64,000 nucleotides of DNA from Escallonia rubra. Its lineage: Eukaryota > Streptophyta > Magnoliopsida > Escalloniales > Escalloniaceae. The notes below the pieces were generated by a model. The model ran no database searches. It was not told where the DNA came from and was given only the letters and a program-made list of their open reading frames with translations. Shown here piece after piece: positions 18,856 to 44,291 of this stretch (the first letter of the stretch is position 1; each line of letters opens with the position of its first letter). The stretch is taken from assembly GCA_033065855.1 (NCBI GenBank), contig JAVXUO010000204.1, positions 1 through 64,000 of the forward strand, read 5' to 3'. Made by a program: the position numbers and the translations under genes.

Positions 18856-19145
18856 GGAGCTGATCTGTTGAGAGCGCGGGTAAAATGAGATATTTTATAA
18901 GCGCGATCTGACCGTCCATCCAGAAAGATAGACGGCCCAGATCGTGCTTTTTTCAAAAACTGTCAGTCGTCCGCCATACAGTGTAGCGGACGTACTTTTT
19001 TACCTTTTTGCCCCTCTGCGCCCGTTCGCTACACTGTATAGCGGACAACATTAAATTACTGACACGGGACAGCAAAAAGACGTCCGCTATACAGTGTAGC
19101 AGACGTCCCATACGCTGACACCTGTCAGGCCCTGTCCCGTCAGTC
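18856..19145. repeat. MULE left terminal inverted repeat
   Basis: Matches the reverse complement of 25670-25977 throughout: the outer GGAGCTGAT...GCGCGATCTG block, the CCATAC palindrome, the CTTTTTGCCCCTC stretch, the ACAACATTAAATTACTGACACGGGACAGC block and the CCTGTC inner edge. It has about 17 bp less than the right copy because the right copy duplicates a GATGGATGGCCAGAT segment. Confidence 0.9.
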
Positions 19146-19278
19146 CTTTTCGGCAATGACGGTTATCTTGTCCTTATCTATCACGTCAACAGTGTCCGCT
19201 ACACAGTGTAGCGGACGTAATAGCCATCCGCGATACTGTATAGCGAACGTAAGACATCCGCGATACTGTATAGCGGAC
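18968..19278 (+). promoter_or_regulatory. Palindrome array L (6 units), upstream of PMD
   Basis: Units begin at about 18968, 19024, 19082, 19194, 19226 and 19256. Each approximates GTCCGCTA-N7-TAGCGGAC, the centre being CACTGTA or its reverse complement. The last two units have CCGCGATACTGTATAGCG. The array ends about 20-140 bp before the likely PMD transcription start and leader exon. A regulatory role is inferred from position only. Confidence 0.75.
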
Positions 19279-19415
19279 GGTCACTATACATTCGAAAAAC
19301 AGTAACTAAGACTCTCTTCTCCGCTCTTTCTACTCACAAAATTTTCCAGCGGCGTTGGCAAGCAGATCGGCGCAATTCCGTCTTAAGAACACCTTTAATA
19401 CCCTAAATCGATCAC

Positions 19416-19886
19416 GTAAGTTCACAAAATCTATACTTTTTTTTGTTAGTAATCGATAGTTGTGATGAATATTGCGTTTCATATATGTATGTTTTTCTTC
19501 ATGTGCAAGCGTTTGTAAAATCCGATTCCGTATATGTATATATATCTATTATACATATGAGTATATATGCTAACATTGCATGCATTATGCATGTGCTTGC
19601 GTTATATGTAATATGCATGTGCTAGCTTTTGTTTATAATCGATAGTTGTGATGAATATTGCGTTTTATATATGTATGTTTTTGTTCATGTGCTAGCGTTT
19701 GTAAAATCCGATTCCGTATATGTATATATATCTATTATACATATGAGTACATTTGCTAACATTGTATGCATTATGCATGTGCTTGCGTTATATGTATTAT
19801 ACATGTGCTAGCGTAGTATTTTTGCGAGCGATTATCAAAATCCAAAACGTATAATTTAAACTGAGAAGGTTTTTCCATAATTTCAG
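19416..19886 (+). other. Predicted 5' UTR intron of the PMD gene
   Basis: A good donor, CAC|GTAAGT, at 19416 and a good acceptor, TTTCAG, ending at 19886, ten bases before the PMD start codon. The transposase gene has a similar leader intron (25446-25056), which supports the reading. Confidence 0.55.
19443..19811. repeat. Two tandem 186-bp units in the PMD leader intron
   Basis: 19443-19628 and 19629-19811 are nearly identical direct copies (both start TAATCGATAGTTGTGATGAA and include ATCCGATTCCGTATATGTAT). The parallel 60-codon frames they contain are a by-product. Confidence 0.9.
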
Positions 19887-19895
19887 TTGCAAAAA

Positions 19896-21249
19896 ATGGA
19901 ATTTAACCCTAGACCAGAAGACCCATCCGTATTATACGACCAAGCCAACCATATCAACACACTCATATGGGATGGTGGAGTAAGATACATTATTTATCAA
20001 CTTTCTTATTCTTACGAACGTTGTATATACCGTTTGTTTTGCTTAAATTGTATTTATTAATTCGTAGGAAAGAGAACTTCTCACAGTAGAAGTATCTCGC
20101 GAGTTCACATCGTGGAAACTGAACACCGCCCAGAAGAGGATACTGCGTGGAATTGGGTTTGGGATTTTCACGCATGGGCAGATATTTCAACAGCTTGACT
20201 GGCCGTTGATAGGTGCCCTTGTTGAGAGGTGGAGAAGTGAAACGAATACGTTTCATTTCCCGCTCGGAGAGATGACAATTACCCTAGAAGATGTAGGGTT
20301 CATCTTAGGGTTGCCGGTGACGGGGCGGCCGGTAATTGCTCCTCCGTCAGAAGCAACGAATAAGAGAACCTCTAGGGACTACTTAACTTCGATACCCCAG
20401 GATCAATTTAGCAGTGGTGGTATCAAGTTGAAGTGGTTGGTAGATACCTACGGGGTTTTGCCGGAAAACTATACGGGCCATGACCTTGTGCTGTACACAC
20501 AAGCCTTCCTCTGGTGGGTGATGGGGGCAATATTATTCCCAACGACGTCGAAGAACACGGTCAGCGTGAGATATTTACCGTTGTTGGGTAACCTGGCTGA
20601 GGTTGGAGATTATGCATGGGGTGCGGCGGTTCTTTCGTATCTATACCGAGCATTGCACAAGGCAACGAGGCCCGACTCCAAAGCCATATGTGCATGTCTC
20701 TCGCTATTGCAGGTATATCATATAAATCCTGTCTTCGTCATTGTTTTTTTTTTTGGTTTTTGCTTTTGTTGAATCGACGATATAACTATAATTTGCCCAT
20801 GTTCTCAGGTGTGGTCTTATGAACATCTTGCTCCAGGTGCACCAACGCGTAGGGATGAAACCGATAGAGTGTGGCCTCGGTTGCGTGCTTGGGAGTACAG
20901 CCGGAAGAATAGCCACTACCGCAGGAGAGTCGATCCCCATCACAACATCACGTACTATCGAGGGGAGTTCGACCGTCTATCTCCGGGCCAAATGCATTGG
21001 GCACCGTACATACGTTTGGCGCGATGGGTAGAAGAGTCGTTCGTCTTCACGCTCTCCGGGTTGCAGCGCACACCCCTCATCCACTTCGAGGTCGCAGAGT
21101 GGCAGCTGCATGACCGAGCAATGCGCCATTTTGAGTTGGAGCAGGGATTGCCAGCCGGTGCCCCAGATATGAGGGTTAACAGGGAACCACCGGATGTCGG
21201 GCGGTTTGGCAAGGCCAATGCGCAAGAATTGTGCGCGGCCCAGATATGA
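19896..21249 (+). CDS. Plant mobile domain (PMD / MAIN-like) protein
   Basis: Three coding exons: 19896-19979, 20068-20712 and 20809-21249, joined by GT-AG introns in phase 0, giving 389 aa. The ATG at 19896 starts a peptide with the PMD opening DPSVLYDQANHINTLIW. Exon 2 has the family core FPLGEMTITLEDVGFILGLP and ends in LLQ; exon 3 resumes with VWSYEHLAPG and a conserved WPRLRAW block. PMD proteins (relatives of MAIN and MAIL1) are nuclear factors linked to silencing of TEs and to genome stability, and TE-borne forms are known. The frame is undamaged. A 26-bp direct repeat 77 bp apart (21164 and 21241) places the stop codon in the second copy, so the C-terminus may have been shortened. Function in the element is not known. 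Confidence 0.88.
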
Positions 21250-21680
21250 GGGTTAACAGGGACCCATTTATGAGGGTGCACAGCTGAGGATCTCACGTCA
21301 TAATGGTGCAGATCATTGTCTGCAACTTGGACCAGAAAATGGTTGGCACGAACCAGACACTTAGTTCCGACCTTCCCGAACCCCGGCCTAAGCAGAGGCC
21401 TTATGTCCGCTATATAGTAGAGCTAGACTTTGGTGTCCCCTATGTAGTAGAGCTAGACTTTGTAGCGTAATGCAGTTTTAATAAATTGGAAGAAATTGGC
21501 GCCCGAAGACTTGTTTTAGCGACGGAATCAACAATCTCAATATCGATAAACAATAAATAACGTTCGATTCACAATCAACGATCTCAATATATCGAGGGAA
21601 TCTCAAACTGCACAATTAAGCGAGAATATAAATTTGGAAACATAATGAACAAGAACATAATTTTTTTTATTATTAATAAA
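21250..21680. other. Intergenic DNA between PMD and B3 genes
   Basis: Holds the second copy of the 26-bp repeat, a degenerate palindrome half (GTCCGCTATATAGTAG at 21402) and a duplicated TAGTAGAGCTAGACTTTG. The converging 3' ends of PMD and B3 meet here. No further gene seen. Confidence 0.5.
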
Positions 21681-22149
21681 TTAGGGTTCACATTGGGGGA
21701 AAGAAATTTTTTCACAAGCGCTCCGATCAAAGATTACAGCTTGAAAATCCCACCACCCAAGGTGTTCAAACACTACAAAGTCCCCGAGTTCGAGGCCATG
21801 CTGGCGCACAAAGACGTTTCAACCCTCTGTGAATTGCTTTCTTTCAGGTCGGCCGGGCTTCAGCGTGATTTCAACCTGCCATGCCCCCTTGCGGCTATAT
21901 AATCTTGCACTGTCATGAATTGTTGTAAATTGATTGGTAAAAGCTTCCGGTAAGTCCTAACAAATACAATACAAAAAATAGGTTAGTTTTTAACCAAAAG
22001 AACAAACTTTTAACACACGAAAATACAGAGAAAGAGGGATGGCCTACAAGTTCATTCTCAAATCCCGGCATCATGACTTTGAAAAGGTGCTTGCCCACCA
22101 GGTGCAAGTTGGCAATAAAATCGTAGGTGGTCTCCGGAGATGAAGCCAT
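21681..22149 (-). pseudogene. B3 DNA-binding domain gene (REM-like), one nonsense codon
   Basis: Two exons on the minus strand: 22149-22048 and 21956-21681, with a 91-bp GT-AG phase 0 intron (acceptor TTTGTTAG). The spliced product is about 125 codons, about one B3 domain. It shows the usual B3 order: KHLFKVMMPGF (strand 1), DLPEAFTNQF, GAWQVEITLKPG, then GLELGDFVVFEHLG and FQAVIFDRSACEK. The single break is TGA at 21821-21819, at the position of the conserved tryptophan of the B3 FxxGW motif. B3 domains are plant-specific DNA-binding folds; single small ones are typical of the REM group. Neither exon alone makes a long open frame, so the gene is easily missed. It lies 160 bp downstream of palindrome array C. 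The nonsense codon could be a recent mutation of this copy. Confidence 0.8.
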
Positions 22150-22308
22150 CGAGGTCGGCGTTGAGGGGAGGACGGTGGTGTCGCCGGAGATGTGGGTCGC
22201 CGTAGATGGGGTGGCGGCTTGGGTTAGATGTTCGAGACAGAGAGAATATAGCGGACTGATAAAAGCTGATTGCCCGATCTGATTAATATATATAATAGGA
22301 TAGAGTTA

Positions 22309-22600
22309 TCCGCTACATTGTATAGCGGACATAAAAGAAGACGAAGCGATGTCGTCCGCTACATTGTATAACGGACATAAAGGAAGACCAAAAGTTTTTC
22401 TGCGATGCCGTCCGCTACATTGTATAGCGGACATAAAAGAAAACCAAAAGTTTTTCTGCGATTCCGTCCTCCACATTGAATAGCGGACGTAAAAGCCAAA
22501 TGTTGTTTCTGTGATTCCATCCGCTATATTGTGTAGCGGACATGAAGAGCACCAAAAAATTAGGGGTCTGCATATCCGTCCGCTACATAGTGTAGCGGAC
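22309..22600 (-). promoter_or_regulatory. Palindrome array C (6 units), upstream of B3
   Basis: Units start at about 22309, 22354, 22410, 22466, 22519 and 22578, spaced 45-59 bp, each near GTCCGCTA-N7-TAGCGGAC with centre CATTGTA rather than CACTGTA. Spacers share AAAGTTTTTCTGCGAT. The array sits between the transposase stop and the B3 start, so it is upstream of B3. Role inferred. Confidence 0.75.
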
Positions 22601-22748
22601 GGGGATAGCAAACAAAAAAAAAAAACTTAGACTTAGATTTGATGGCCTCTCATATAGGTCCATCAGAAAAAAATTCCAGTATTCGGTCGAAAAATTATTA
22701 GAAAAAAATTACAATAAATTATTACAAATGTCAAACTTATACAAAAAA

Positions 22749-25042
22749 TTAAAGGTCCACTGCAGCTTGTTCGTCCTCATCTTTGGCGTCATCTTCTTCC
22801 CCGTCTTGCAAACCCCCTGAACTTATCCCCAGTGCCTTGTAATGGTTCCGCTTGTCGTGGTCGGTCATTTTGTTGCACAATGCACACCTTCGTAGCTTTT
22901 TAGGTTGAGTTGTCGTTTCAATAGAGCTTTTCATCCGCGTAGATCTCTTGCGGCCTTTCGTTTGCGATATAATTGTATCCAACGGTCGGATATCATTGTC
23001 GTCTTCCTCCCCCGGCTCGTCATCTTCTGACCCCGTCGTAGGCTCGGTGTCAACCGCATTGGTGACGGAAGCTGCTTCCAACTGGTCGACGATGGGCTCT
23101 TGCTGCTGAGCTACCTCGAGGAGATGTTTATAACCGACCATTGTAGCAGCAGCCTTTACGGACAAACGGGTGAGCATCGTCACCAGATGATTATACCGCA
23201 ACGTCTCTGATTCTTCAAAGTCAGTATACGGGTGCTCCGGAAAGGCAATGGTACCGTGCAACCTGTTTGCACCTTTCGTCCACCGTGGCAAGACGTATTT
23301 ATCGGGGATTGTCCTGATATTCTTCTGGGTGAAAAACCGCAGAATGTGTCTACATAGGATGCCATGGAACTCAAACTTCTTGCAAACACATGTCACCGAG
23401 TCCGTCAATACATCGTGGCTCACCGTATACATTCTTCGCAGCTTCTCAGGAACGAGGTCATTCACGAGCGAATAAACCTTGTACTCACCCGTAGACTTTT
23501 CTGCCACCTTGTTTATACAGTATCGTCCCGATTTTTGCAGCTCTACTTGGTATAGCAAAAAGATCTCCTTCGTATAGACTTTGGTACCGTTTAGCTCCAG
23601 CGGGGTCTCAAGCAACCTTCTCCTCTGTTTGTACGTGGTTGCAAAGTCTACAGCCCTTTCTTTCACGAATAACGACGCAACCGCTTTCTGTGCAGATGTG
23701 ACGAAACTCTTCAAATTGGTAGCTGTACCCACGTAACCATCGAACGTGGCATTCATAGATTCACTCATGCCCGTGGTTTTCATGCGCGCAGAAAAATGCC
23801 TTCTCGTGTAAACGCCAATACATTGCTCTTTGAGCTCGTACAGGTGCTGGAGCCAGTCGTTGTCTTGCAATGAGTAATCCTCAACAAGATTTTCCCACCT
23901 CTCCTCAAATTCCTCAATCGTTAACGACTTGCTAACGCACGTGTCAAAACCCTGTTTAAAGTCTGGAAACTTTGCATACACGTGATGCAAAAGTTCGGGG
24001 TATTTGTTGCTTATGTGCCACGTGCACAAGTTGTGTCGAGTATCTGGGAAGACGGTGGCAATAGCCTTCTTCATTGCCAAATCTTGATCGGTGATGATAA
24101 CCTTCGGTGCTTTGTTGTTCATGGCTTCCAGCCACGCCCTAAACAACCATTCAAAAGAACTCTCGCTCTCGTCCCTTAACAAGGTGAACCCGAACAGGAT
24201 GGAGTGATAATGATGATTGACCCCCAAGAAAGGGGCGAACGACATCGAGTACTTGTTGGTACGGTATGTGGTGTCGAACATCACGACATCCCTAAAATGC
24301 TTATAAGCAAGCCTCGAACGACCGTCGACCCAAAAAATTGTGCTAACTCGATGCTCGTCGTCAAGTTTATAATCGAAGGTAAAATGTGGGTCCTCCATCT
24401 GCATCCGTTTCAATAGGATCATTGTGGATTGAGTATCATTGAGGTCATATGCGGCTCGTCTATGGGTTCGGACCGCGTTACGAACGTCTATCGTGTTAAA
24501 GTTCAAATTTTGAATTCCCCCAGCCTGTTCAGCAAGAACATTAACAATCTCGGTAGGTCCTATCCGCGCATCGGTCATTGTGTGAATTAGGCTTCTCACG
24601 ACCTTACCCATCTTCTTGTGTTGATGCATCTGACTCACCTTAGAAGGGGTTACTAATGGGTGATTGTGTGCCAGTTCCAGGCTGGTAATAAGCCAATGAT
24701 CTTGCTTGGCTTTATAGCTTACGAACATCTTGACCTTGCAATTCGTTCGCGCAAAGCAGTCCCGTCTTCTGCGCGAATATCCTATTTCGTCATCACTGTC
24801 ATCGTTGCCTACGCGTGTCTCATTATGCACTGGGTTTCTGCCCCTATGACACTCGTATAAGCGAGAGCATATCTTTTTCGTTATGTTGCTCGTTCTTGAA
24901 GTCTTTATTCTAATGCCAAATCCAACCCTCAGTGAATACGCTCGGAAGCATTCTCCAGCTTCTTCCAATGTTTGAAAGGTTCGTCCTAGATACGGATCAC
25001 TAGCATCTACGGGGGTGTTGGATTCGACATGAAATCAGACAT
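22749..25042 (-). CDS. MULE transposase with FAR1, DDE and SWIM domains
   Basis: One uninterrupted frame of at least 739 codons from 24968 to 22749, open upstream to 25034. The FAR1-type WRKY-GCM1 zinc finger (about residues 5-105, ending in HNHP) precedes the MULE catalytic core with FDTTY and ITDQD acid residues (about 225-300). A SWIM finger (CVCKKFEFHGILCRH, about 530-545) and a C-terminal CALC...H knuckle follow. The family cuts and joins TIR-ended DNA in the nucleus. The start is unclear: ATG at 25042 opens a peptide of 11 codons ending at the G5 run 25011-25015, where the frame is off by one base from the rest. A small indel or a later start would explain this. A leader intron (25446-25056) precedes it. 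Acts on the flanking TIRs, by inference. Confidence 0.85.
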
Positions 25043-25055
25043 TGTGAAACAAGAC

Positions 25056-25446
25056 CTATGTAGAAATAGACTACGCTTAACAATCAAATGACATTTTCAA
25101 CTGAAAATATTACCTAAAAATTAGCACTGACGAATATACCACATACATAATCTCAAAAGTCTCCTATTTTGCTAATTATAGATTCATTGAACATAACAAA
25201 TTAAAATTACTAAGATAAATAGACAAATTCATCATGCCAAAATACAACAAACGTATCTCAAAAAAATCGAATTTAAATAGAATAAATGCGTCGAAGTTAG
25301 CGAACCTCAAAAAATTCGAAATTAATTACAATGAATTTGTTCCAAGTTAACAAATTAATTTCTACAACATCACAAGTTGAGGAATAGAGTGACAAATTTC
25401 TAGAACATCACCAATAATCTATACTCTTTTGAGATCAGAAACTTAC
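25056..25446 (-). other. Predicted 5' UTR intron of the transposase
   Basis: On the minus strand the donor AAG|GTAAGT lies at 25446 and the acceptor CATAG at 25056, 13 bases before the ATG at 25042. It matches the layout of the PMD gene. Confidence 0.5.
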
Positions 25447-25588
25447 CTTGCTTGAATGAAGCTTGAAGCAAGTATTACCCGAAGCTTGAGGGGAGCAGAA
25501 AATGAATGGAAGCAAGTGAATCTGAAGGAGAATAAAATTTTGCCGAAAGAGCTGAGAATTAGGGAACTTTTGGTTTGTATGGAAATAA

Positions 25589-25848
25589 TGTCCGCTATAC
25601 TGTAAAGCGGAAATTAATGCCGACACACTGACACGTCAGAAAGAAAGACATGACGCGAGACTTTCTTGGCGGGCGACGGGACAGGCTTGACAGGTGTGAG
25701 CCTAGGGGACGTCCGCTACACTGTATAGCGGACGTCTTTTTGCTGTCCCGTGTCAGTAATTTAATGTTGTCCGCTATACAGTGTAGCGGACTGGCGTGGA
25801 GGGGCAAAAAGGTAAAAAAAAGTACGTCCGCTACACTGTATGGCAGAC
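25589..25848 (-). promoter_or_regulatory. Palindrome array R (4 units), upstream of the transposase
   Basis: Units at about 25589, 25711, 25769 and 25826. The inner one is outside the TIR and the other three are the mirror of units 1-3 of array L. The array lies upstream of the transposase leader exon (about 25447-25560). Role inferred. Confidence 0.75.
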
Positions 25849-25975
25849 GACTGACAGTTTTCGAAAAAGGCGCGATCTGGCCATCCATCTATCTGGGCCG
25901 TCCATCTTTCAAGATGGATGGCCAGATCGCGCTTGCAAAATATCCCATTTTGCCTCCGTTCTCAACGGATCAGCT

Positions 25976-25977
<2 letters not shown>
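25670..25977. repeat. MULE right terminal inverted repeat
   Basis: Reverse complement of 18856-19145 with scattered substitutions and an extra ~17-bp duplication near 25875-25925 (CCATCCATCTATCTGGGCCG next to GATGGATGG). Confidence 0.9.
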
Positions 25978-39515: not shown

Positions 39516-42500
39516 GTGATCGTCTGTAGTTGGAAGGAATCAAATGGAGTAGCTGAGATGCCGAGATCAGTGAAGAATAATCAACTCACTGAGACAGAAA
39601 ATCATGACTTCCAGGAAGCAATGGGGAATAGAATTGCTGCTTATGATGTGCGCATGGCTTCTGTAGAAACTACGATGGGAGACTTGCAGAGAGGCAATTC
39701 AACCTTGCACCAGAGCTTCTCTGATCTTAAGCTGGAACTCACTAGCTTCATGGCTCAAATGAATACTCGAACAGAAAACAGTCACAAGACAAATACTGAG
39801 CGTGGAGAGTCTAGTCACAGGCACAATCGAATGGATTTCTGACTTCAACAGAACACTCAACCGCCTCATGCAGGTAACCTGCCACCTCCTCAGTTACCTA
39901 AACTCTCATTTCTAAGGTTTAATGGTGACGACCCCAGGGGTTGGGTGCGCAAGGCTGAGAAATACTTCGACATGTGTCCTATACATGAGGACTACAAGGT
40001 TCCTTATGCATCGGTGCACTTCGATGCTCAGGCAAAACATTGGTATGCTGCCTATATTAAACCAGTAGAGAATGTTGATTGGGAGTCCTTTGTGAAGGAT
40101 CTGTATGCTAGGTTCTCAGTATTAACTGGAGTGAGTGTGTTGGGAGAGTTCAATAAGCTCAAACAAATTGGGACAGTAGACGATTATTTTAACAAATTTG
40201 AAGCACTACGAGCTCAAGTAGTGCAAGAGTTTGACTATTTGGATGAATCTTATTTTTGCATGAGTTTTATTGGAGGCTTAAGGCCTGAGATCCAGAGTAG
40301 AGTTGAACAATTTAAGGTGGGGAGTCTTACTAAGGCTATATACATAGCCCGAAGAGAAGAAGTGGCAATTCAAAAATTGTTAAAGGGACACAAGTCTATG
40401 CACACTGCAACCCCCACATCCAACTACACCCAAACTTCCTATAAGCCTACATTTACCAACCCTGGACCATCCTATAAGACTGCCAAACCAACCACAACCC
40501 AACCTATACCATCAAAACCTCCAGCCTTACCTTACACCAGCAGTTTCCAAAATGGCCTATTACCAACTCCTCCCAGACCCCCTCTAAGATTTAATCAACT
40601 GTCCACAGAGGAACACCAAAGGAGGTTAAGTCAAGGGTTATGCTTCAGGTGTGGAGCTAAGTTCGAACCAGGTCACAAGAGTGTGTGCCCTATGAAATCT
40701 ATAGCCATGATCATAGCTGAAGATGATGAGGTCACAGAAGCTACTGACAGCTCTATGACAGAAACTGAGGATCCTCTCAACTCTCTAAACCAAGAACTCA
40801 ACCCTGAACTAGAGATTAGTGTCCATGCCCTGGCTGGTAACAAGACACACCATACCATCAGGATACCTGGACAAGTTGAAGGCAATGAGTTCAGCATCCT
40901 AATTGACACATGATCAACTGATAACTTCCTTGACCCTCAGTCAGCAAGTAAACTGAGATGCATTCTGGAAAGTACTACTCCATTGACAGTGGTTGTAGCT
41001 AATGGGGCAAGATTGAAGTCTGATACAGTGTGCAATAATTTCACATGGGAAATGGGGTCACAGAAGTTCAACACTAAGATAAGAATTCTGCCATTGGGAG
41101 GGTGTGATTGTGTCCTTGGTATGCAGTGGCTGAGACAATTTGGCAATGTTAACTTCAATTTTGATGACAACCAAATCTCATTTCAGTACCAAGGCAAGCT
41201 CATAATATTGGAGGGAGGAGAATTCAAGGGAACTACTATCAAGATGATCACAGCAACAGCCATGAACAACTTGATCACAAATAATGTGGGAACACTCTTT
41301 GGTCAAATCTATGTTGTGACCATTCCCTCAGGAGATGGATAACAACCTGTTGAAATACAAGAACTATTGGCAGAGTACCAAGAGGTGTTTGATGAACCTA
41401 AAGGGTTACCACCCCACATGAGTCATGACCATTTCATTCCATTTATTGAAGGAGTTAAGCCTGTCAACCTGAGACCATACATGGTCTCATATGTGCAGAA
41501 GAATGAAATTGAAAAGATCATAGCAGAGCTGCTACAAACAGGTACTATCAAACCTAGCAACTCTCCCTTTGCATCACCCATACTTTTAGTCAAGAAAAAA
41601 GATGGGAGCTAGAGGATGTGTGTCGACTACAGTGAACTTAATAAGCTGACAATCAAGGACAGGTACCCCATCCCTGTCATTGATGATTTGTTGGATGAGC
41701 TGCAAGGGTCCACCATTTTCACTAAACTGGACCTTAGGAGTGGCTATCACCAGATACGAGTGGTAGACACTGATACTCACAAGACTGCTTTCAGGACACA
41801 CACAGGGCTTTATGAGTTTTTAGTCATGCCCTTTGGGCTAACTAATGCTCCATCCACCTTTCAAAGCTTGATGAACACAATATTTCACCCATATCTGAGG
41901 CAGTTTGTACTAGTTTTCTTTGATGATATCTTAATATACAGTAAGAGTATGCAGACTCACTTAGTCCACCTCAGGCAAGTGCTACAGCTAATGAGGCAAC
42001 ATTGCCTATATGCAAAGATGAGCAAGTGTACCTTTGCTCAAGGGCAAGTTGAGTATTTGGGGCATGTGGTGAGCAAAAATGGTGTAGCAGCAGATATGAG
42101 CAAGGTGGAAGTCATGCTCAACTAGCCAACACCAAGAAACCTTAAAGGGTTGAGAGGGTTTCTAGGCCTCACTGGATACTACAGGAAGTTTGTTAAACGC
42201 TATGGAGTGATTAGTAGGCCTTTAACCAATTTATTAAAGAAAGATGCATATCACTGGGATACTTCATCTGCTCAAGCCTTCAGTACACTGAAGCAAGCCA
42301 TGGCAACCACTCCTGTCTTGGCATTTCCAAATTTCACACTTCCTTTTGAGGTGGAAACTGATGCATGTGATGTAGGCCTTGGAGCAGTTCTTATGCAACA
42401 AGTTAAACCATTGGCCTACATTAGCAAAGGATTGGGTGTTAAGTGCTTAGGGCTCTCCACTTATGAAAAAGAGCTTCTAGCCTTAGTGCATGCTATTACT

Positions 42501-44291
42501 AAATGGAGTCCCTACCTCAGCCATAACCACTTCATAGTCAGGACTGACCACAGCAGCCTGAAATACCTTATAGGACAGAGGGTTACATCTATGCTGCAAC
42601 AAAAATTATTGTCCAAGCTTCTGGGTTTCGACTTTGAAGTGCATTACAAAAAGGGAACATACAATGTGGTAGCAGATGCCTTATCAAGACTACCACATCA
42701 AGACCCTGAAGAATGCAATGCAGTGACTGTGGTGACTCCCCTATGGCAACAAGAGCTGCAAAACAGCCTTGAGAATGATGATCTAGCTCCAAAGGCAATC
42801 CAAGAACTGCTGCTTGATTCCATGGCAACTTCCTTTTATACCCTTCAGGGTGGCATACTGAAGTTCAAAGGCAAGGTGTATGTTGGTAGCACAGGACAGA
42901 TCAGAAATCAGATTTTACAAGAGCTTCATACTACTGGTCTGGGTGGCCATTCTGGGATTCAAAATACATACATGAGAACCACTATGTTCTTCTATTGGCC
43001 TAACATGAAGCAGCAAATTACCAAATTGGTAAGTGAATGCTCTTCTTGCCAACAGAATAAGTCTGAGAATGTACCCTACCCTAGGCTACTACAACCTTTA
43101 GAGATCCCAGGGCAGATGTGGACACATCTGACTATGGATTTTGTGGAAGGGTTGCCTAAGTCCCAAGGGAATGATGTCATTTTTGTGGTGGTAGATAGGT
43201 TGAGCAAATATGCTCACTTTATTAGCCTAACCCACCCATTCACAGCAGAACTAGTTGCTCAGAGTTTTCTTGACAATGTCTTTAAGCTCCATGGAATGCC
43301 CACTGCCATCATCAGTGACAGAGATAAAGTCTTCCTATCCAACTTCTGGACTAAGCTCTTCAAGCTAATGAGAACTCAACTGGCCTACAGTTCATCCTAT
43401 CACCCAGAGACAGATGGACAAACTGAAAGAGTGAACAAGTGCTTAGAGAACTACCTCAGATACATGTGTAGTACCAGGCCTCATAGTTGGGCCAGATGGT
43501 TGACTTTGGCTGAATATTGGTATAATACTAGCTACCATGCTTCAATCCAGATGATTCCTTTTGAAGCTGTCTATGGCCACAAACCCAAGATTCTCAGCCT
43601 AGCTACACCTGAATCTACCAATATCACAGAATTAGACAGCTACTTGAAAGACAGAAGCAGGGTATTGAGCTTACTCAAAGATAACTTGACATAAGCTCAG
43701 GCTTGAATGCAACAGTACGCAAACCTCCATCGTACTGAGAGAGAGTTTGTGGAAGGAGATTGGGTTTACCTAAGGCTACAGCCCTACAGACAGACTTCCT
43801 TAGGCCTCAAAAGGAATATGAAGCTCTCACCTAAGTTCTTTGGACCATACCAAATAACCCAGAAGGTCAGCAAGGTTGCATATAAGCTTAAACTTCCAGA
43901 AGGGTCTAAAATACACCCAGTTTTTCATGTTTCTCTGTTGAAGAAGAAGTTGGGCAGTCAAATTACTCCTACAACTCACTTGCCATACTTAGGCAGTGAT
44001 GGATAGATTTTGATGGAACCAGTTGCTGTGCTAGATCGAAGACAGATTAAACGAGACAATCAAGTTGTCACCCAGGTTTTGATTAAATGGTCCAACGCCA
44101 ATCACGGGGATGAGAGCTGGGAAGATTGGGCAATGATCAAGTGCAGGTTTCCGTATTTTGACCCTTGTGGACAAGGGTCAACTGAAGGGGAAGGGGATGT
44201 AACAACCTCACATCATGAGGCAGAAGAAGCACCACCAACCCAAGAAGAAGCTCCATCAGCTCAAGAAGCCAACCATGAAGTTCCAGCTTAG
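39516..44291 (+). pseudogene. Gypsy gag-pol polyprotein, broken by nonsense codons
   Basis: All domains lie in one reading frame. Order: leader peptide, gag (39945-40400), zinc knuckle CFRCGAKFEPGHKSVC (about 40640-40690), protease (about 40880-41130), reverse transcriptase with its FFDD box (41460-42000), RNase H (42350-42700), integrase zinc finger HHCC (42930-43070), integrase core (43110-43640) and chromodomain (44010-44160). In-frame stops lie at 39840, 40911 (inside the protease active-site motif), 41340, 41610, 42123, 43692, 43704 and 44004. I see no frameshift. Made for reverse transcription and integration of the element; not functional here. Confidence 0.92.
44184..44197 (+). promoter_or_regulatory. 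Polypurine tract
   Basis: GAAGGGGAAGGGGA directly before the 3' LTR, the usual plus-strand primer site. Confidence 0.85.

Follow-up and report, generated by a model that had tools for sequence, protein, structure and literature searches.

The closest described relatives of the system reported here are the VANDAL transposons of Arabidopsis with their anti-silencing proteins VANC21 and VANC6, the VANC genes that also carry an Ulp1 domain (KIU; PMC13317346), and the fusions of a PMD domain with the transposase in Mutator-like elements (MULEs) of grasses and Amborella, for which an anti-silencing role has been guessed (PMC5418596). That PMD occurs in MULEs is thus already known, as an earlier, sequence-only reading of the DNA studied here had remarked. 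We analyzed a window of 64,000 nucleotides, the first 64,000 positions of the forward strand of Escallonia rubra contig JAVXUO010000204.1 (C232) in a 566-Mb assembly, in which a MULE with terminal inverted repeats (TIRs) lies at positions 18856–25977. The element carries transposase, PMD, and B3 genes, as had been proposed, each recognized by Pfam. It appears to be a copy shortened by deletion, from a highly abundant MULE family with TIRs that was apparently active not long ago. The fuller copies of this family have three core genes, for a transposase, for a small B3 protein, and for PMD-C48. We tentatively favor the reading that PMD-C48 recognizes the palindromes of the family and reverses silencing of its own kind, with B3 as an accessory.

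PMD-C48 is the better candidate binder because the predicted model of a close PMD relative, P0122, matches VANC21 and because in another relative the PMD frame runs into a C48 domain. The window PMD protein was assigned to Pfam PMD with E-values of 1.2e-50 and 7.7e-15 (173.1 bits against a cut-off of 34.9); it is 93% identical to P0122, also from E. rubra, and lacks the last 217 residues of that protein. A PDB sequence search with PMD found no relative. A PDB structure search (Foldseek) with the predicted P0122 model gave one good match, VANC21 with its target DNA. The VANC21 fold, which would mark a VANC/KIU protein, is found in the PMD model; the earlier reading had seen no such gene by eye.

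The C48/Ulp1 domain, a feature of KIU only, was deleted from the window copy but is present in its relatives. An uninterrupted 399-codon stretch in C1213 spans the PMD C terminus and the beginning of C48, which falls slightly short of the cut-off (E 6.2e-4; 20.1 bits versus 20.7); the stretch after it carries the catalytic end of C48 above the cut-off (L045: E 2.5e-6, 27.9 bits). Because the PMD C terminus and the start of C48 share one open stretch, PMD-C48 looks like one gene at the sequence level. PMD and the transposase lie on opposite strands in separate frames and are not fused. The best non-Escallonia relatives of the transposase (P0002) and PMD (P0125) both come from ENA, with a longest contig of 7,311 bp each; they may share one contig, perhaps as one element in another plant. 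Among named genomes, near relatives of the transposase occur in Apiaceae.

The features of the window element are as follows (window coordinates).

18856–19141, no strand: left TIR, from the inverted-arm alignment; holds three palindromes.
18969–19278, no strand: palindrome group 1, six copies (three in the TIR, three beyond), upstream of PMD.
19896–21249, plus strand: PMD gene, C terminus lost (Pfam, splice sites read from the sequence, relative P0122).
19896–19979, 20068–20712, and 20809–21249, plus strand: inferred PMD exons, from splice sites read from the sequence.
21240–21275, no strand: junction of an internal loss of approximately 4.6 kb, from comparison with the C336 copy.
21404–21462, no strand: two degenerate units, a remnant of array II (repeat family D8); similar units lie 3′ of B3 in relatives.
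21681–22149, minus strand: B3 gene, exons 22149–22048 and 21956–21681, with one in-frame TGA.
22308–22600, no strand: array I, six palindromes between the transposase 3′ end and the B3 start.
22749–25034, minus strand: transposase frame (FAR1, MULE, SWIM), 761 amino acids, with no in-frame ATG before FAR1.
25590–25848, no strand: palindrome group 3, four copies (three in the TIR), upstream of the transposase.
25675–25977, no strand: right TIR, from the inverted-arm alignment; holds three palindromes.

The TIRs are approximately 290 bp long. Three blocks pair up between the inverted arms, of 136 nt (93% identical), 87 nt (85%), and 65 nt (94%), and confirm the element bounds given previously. 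MULEs as a superfamily create a target-site duplication of 8–11 bp; here it is unreadable because both flanks of the element are (TA)n. A further inverted repeat is visible by eye near each TIR end (18901–18950 and 25870–25935; right arm, GCGCGATCTG ... CAGATCGCGC), and a 186-bp tandem duplication (95% alike) at 19441–19812, 5′ of PMD, is also present in related TIR loci. Elsewhere in the window, positions 39843–43694 contain the frames of a Ty3-type retrotransposon (gag, reverse transcriptase, RNase H, and integrase).

Compared with the C336 relative, the window copy has lost approximately 4.6 kb between 21240 and 21275, a stretch that in C336 holds the PMD C terminus, the C48 sequence, two small open reading frames (ORFs), and arrays II and III. 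When a 161-bp junction query was searched against the genome, both sides were matched only by the window itself among the best 40 of 1,026 candidates. The compact PMD-B3 layout results from this deletion, and we dropped the idea that the gene spacing is a regulatory design. Along with the stop in B3, the transposase frame shows damage in its missing start. Its domains have E-values of 1.8e-32 for MULE, 1.1e-13 for FAR1, and 3e-5 for SWIM. Among the best 59 of 4,820 candidates in the genome, 47 transposase matches, the window included, are free of stops.

Sixteen near-palindromes of 23 bp, with the core GTCCGC-N11-GCGGAC, form three groups in the element, three copies falling in each TIR arm. 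Alignment and a mismatch scan bore out the number and the three arrays described before, and no palindrome was found in the rest of the window at up to three mismatches (0.00 expected by chance). The inventory was incomplete in one respect, having overlooked the two degenerate units at 21404–21462. An array does lie upstream of each gene, as had been claimed, but two of the three are partly TIR-borne, and groups 1 and 3 owe their place upstream of PMD and the transposase in part to the three copies in each TIR arm. The spacers of the left TIR group and the internal group have no sequence in common in 25 comparisons, of which the lowest shuffle p, 0.01, came from a 9-base spacer. Genome-wide, the core occurs at 19,579 sites (control, 2). 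Large arrays lie between genes, with up to 20 copies 3′ of B3, and in array II of group B 130 of 243 copies are identical. By analogy, the position between genes, the tandem expansion, and the subfamily-wise uniformity of these arrays resemble the VANC targets described in PMC5735166 and PMC10398659. In array I, palindromes are 94% and spacers 80% alike, a contrast that we set aside because the units were picked by the palindrome pattern.

Four long relatives show the fuller organization: C336 and C205 are approximately 12 kb each, C1213 is approximately 9.6 kb, and C659 is cut by a contig end. With the transposase forward, the order is TIR, transposase, array I, B3, and array II. In C336, C205, and C659, a pair of small ORFs on opposite strands comes next, and then array III. 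The PMD-C48 gene, encoded on the other strand, and the second TIR close the element. The transposase has one internal stop in C336 and is split in C205. The divergent small ORFs (ORFx and ORFy; L039:6017–6475, minus strand, 153 codons, and L039:6810–7241, plus strand, 144 codons) are common to three of the long relatives, with C659 holding the pair twice, and neither is among the C1213 stretches of at least 100 codons. They have no Pfam match and only weak matches in the PDB (E 0.15 and 0.49). The four fetched regions contain 31, 27, 36, and 36 palindromes at up to four mismatches, some of them beyond the element ends.

The proposal that B3 and the arrays recur together was upheld in two sets of loci. 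In the set chosen by B3 score (L009–L038), a choice that favors open B3 genes, 29 of 30 loci have at least three palindromes 5′ of B3; the other, L034, is cut by the contig start and has one palindrome, 3′ of B3. The second set (L047–L066) was chosen by transposase score and consists of 20 of the 48 transposase places, the window included in the 48, that had no listed B3. A same-strand B3 lies within approximately 1.7 kb downstream of the transposase in all 20, with four to nine palindromes in between, and these loci contain 151 palindromes in 34,935 bases versus none in shuffled sequence. Judged by its frames, B3 is open in both exons at 11 of these loci, has an altered end at one, and is broken at eight. 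A B3-specific 35-mer occurs 458 times in the genome (control, 0). Among the best 150 of 1,389 candidates in a genome search for B3, the exon 2 open frame is 91 amino acids long in 149 and 97 in one, and the internal TAG listed for each match probably lies on the intron side. A B3 copy is also carried by C2567. Groups A and B differ by 2%–5% in the B3 intron and by 7%–31% in the 3′ flank, and C336 and C1213 are approximately 91% alike over the transposase and B3 and 71%–81% alike further on. At L009–L038, the B3 exons, like the intron, are much closer from one subfamily to another than the 3′ flank is. These sequence comparisons suggest that subfamilies have exchanged a transposase-B3 module; the selection of loci on B3 score may have strengthened the pattern.

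The window B3 protein, read with X at its single stop, matches Pfam B3 with E 2.3e-7 (31.1 bits versus a cut-off of 30.1). Its only homolog among 5.8 billion proteins, in a search whose first step requires shared 5-residue words, is P0001 from Escallonia herrerae (72% identity; 38.4 bits for the B3 domain against the same cut-off). No second domain was found in the 125 residues of the window protein or in its relatives, and the best PDB sequence matches are plant B3 transcription factors, with E-values of 0.035 to 0.42. An AlphaFold2 prediction from P0001 alone had a mean pLDDT (predicted local distance difference test) of 51 and was not used. The ratio of nonsynonymous to synonymous substitution (dN/dS) is 0.35–0.47 when the window is compared with groups A, B, and C, 0.36–0.48 when group C is compared with A and B, and 0.59–0.94 for L047, the most divergent copy; it exceeds 1 in two close pairs that differ by six changes or fewer, and several pairs have no synonymous change. 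From this range, constraint on B3 appears moderate. The many open copies suggest that B3 is used, but not for what purpose. Covariation of B3 with the palindrome was not supported, the array I consensus being the same in all groups.

Two further loci carry the palindrome without the genes. Locus L067, on C9, has a neighboring pair of gene-less copies of approximately 1.5–1.7 kb each (L067:1226–4482), standing back to back in (TA)n, with TIR ends 86%–87.5% alike to the last 88 bp of the window element and other sequence between the palindrome-bearing TIRs. The locus has 17 palindromes, five of which are exactly GTCCGCTACATTATGTAGCGGAC or its complement. A C12 locus (L068) has seven. No transposase, B3, PMD, or C48 was found at L068 or, by tblastn, at L067; at both, the palindrome persists and B3 does not.

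Gene content, recurrence, arrays, the C48 domain, and the fold match of the predicted model were established directly. Building on these, we propose that the PMD part has the predicted fold of the VANC21 DNA-binding region and that PMD-C48 would act like the VANC-Ulp1 (KIU) proteins of Arabidopsis, recognizing the 23-bp palindromes of the TIRs and of the intergenic arrays, locally lifting silencing from its own family, and acting in trans on gene-less copies too. B3 would be a second putative DNA-binding accessory, its likeliest roles being transcriptional activation through array I or co-binding. The self-recognition module suspected from the sequence gains strength through PMD, by the VANC21 match and C48, though not by the proposed route of binding by B3 or the transposase. 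Several observations weigh against PMD-C48 in this role. The model and VANC21 are 10% identical, and the Foldseek TM-score reaches only 0.31 for the query and 0.48 for the target. A common fold at that identity, itself predicted, does not establish a common function. DUF1985 did not exceed its Pfam cut-off (19.5 bits versus 35.1 for the consensus of 32 PMD proteins), and DUF287, also marked in VANC, was absent from the 18 families that these 32 proteins matched at E ≤ 1. MAIN and MAIL1, which are PMD proteins of the host, have a role in silencing itself and not in its reversal (PMC5418596). Constraint on the TIR palindromes is weak (0.129 versus 0.16–0.20 in the rest of the TIR, p 0.10 once three misplaced arms were dropped; p 0.12 for the full set of 18 arms), and palindromes in the TIRs of gene-less copies also fit a transposase site.

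Such sites are the basis of an alternative that we consider unlikely, namely that the palindromes are bound by the FAR1-domain transposase in the TIRs and needed for mobility, the internal arrays being either amplified copies or promoter sites under transposase control. The presence of three palindromes in each TIR arm, their retention with TIR ends in both gene-less copies, and the transposase binding sites harbored by long Mutator TIRs (PMC3310237) would all fit, but the large between-gene arrays are unneeded at the ends and the PMD-VANC21 fold match is left unexplained. Still less likely is that palindrome binding falls to B3, which would then be the self-recognition or anti-silencing factor. 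Its recurrence with arrays on both sides and dN/dS below 0.5 in most between-subfamily comparisons speak for this; PMD, however, has the better structural precedent, the small B3 protein offers no second domain, the gene-less copies keep palindromes without it, and the same array I consensus adjoins a B3 gene whose exon 2 is no more than 66% identical to that of the others. Despite these B3-less copies and this divergent B3 gene, B3 is retained as a candidate because a protein can act in trans. We would rank PMD-C48 first, the transposase second, and B3 third as the palindrome-binding, silencing-reversing factor. We regard as improbable, and least likely of all, that the element passively carries captured B3 and PMD sequences and functionless tandem palindromes. 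MULEs do capture host genes (PMC13317346), and the weak TIR constraint and the dN/dS of the most divergent B3 copy agree with passive carriage, whereas the same 23 bp recurring in unrelated contexts at so many sites, dN/dS of 0.35–0.48 in the other between-subfamily comparisons, and B3 genes open in both exons at 11 of 20 loci not selected for B3 do not.

If PMD-C48 does recognize the palindromes, VANC-type self-recognition would extend beyond the non-TIR VANDALs, and the question of what the PMD domain does would gain an answer open to testing, namely that it binds specific DNA sequences through a VANC-like fold. In this genome the palindromic target is abundant, copies run into the hundreds, gene-less ones occur, and B3 is there as a partner. 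It thus offers a natural system that could address how silencing is undone by a transposon for its own family alone, and whether the host PMD silencing proteins share that origin. A broader proposal, which we find possible but doubtful, is that PMD and VANC form one superfamily, plant PMD proteins (the host silencing proteins MAIN and MAIL1 among them) sharing ancestry with DNA-binding anti-silencing factors encoded by transposons, and that this MULE uses two factors, PMD-C48 and B3, on approximately 20,000 palindromes. Among the titles and abstract beginnings searched, no report was found of a PMD-VANC link, which may already be published, or of a MULE-encoded B3 gene; B3 would be a new accessory in such a system. 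It also differs from the plant B3 transcription factors FUS3, LEC2, and VRN1, with which it shares a B3 domain above the Pfam cut-off, in consisting of one small domain that a mobile element encodes hundreds of times. The grass and Amborella fusions likewise have a MULE-borne PMD, whereas the Escallonia PMD is separate, on the other strand, and continues into C48. VANC-Ulp1 (KIU) proteins share the order of a VANC-fold part, here predicted, followed by a C48/Ulp1 protease; the Escallonia system differs in having PMD as the N-terminal part, a TIR element, and a B3 gene. With VANDAL/VANC, it has in common a MULE transposase, the VANC21 fold of the PMD model, and tandem motif arrays in noncoding regions (PMC5735166). 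It differs in its Pfam PMD domain, where VANC has DUF1985/DUF287, in its clear TIRs (85%–94% identical by block), where those of VANDALs are degenerate (PMC10398659), and in a 23-bp palindrome instead of 8- to 9-bp motifs.
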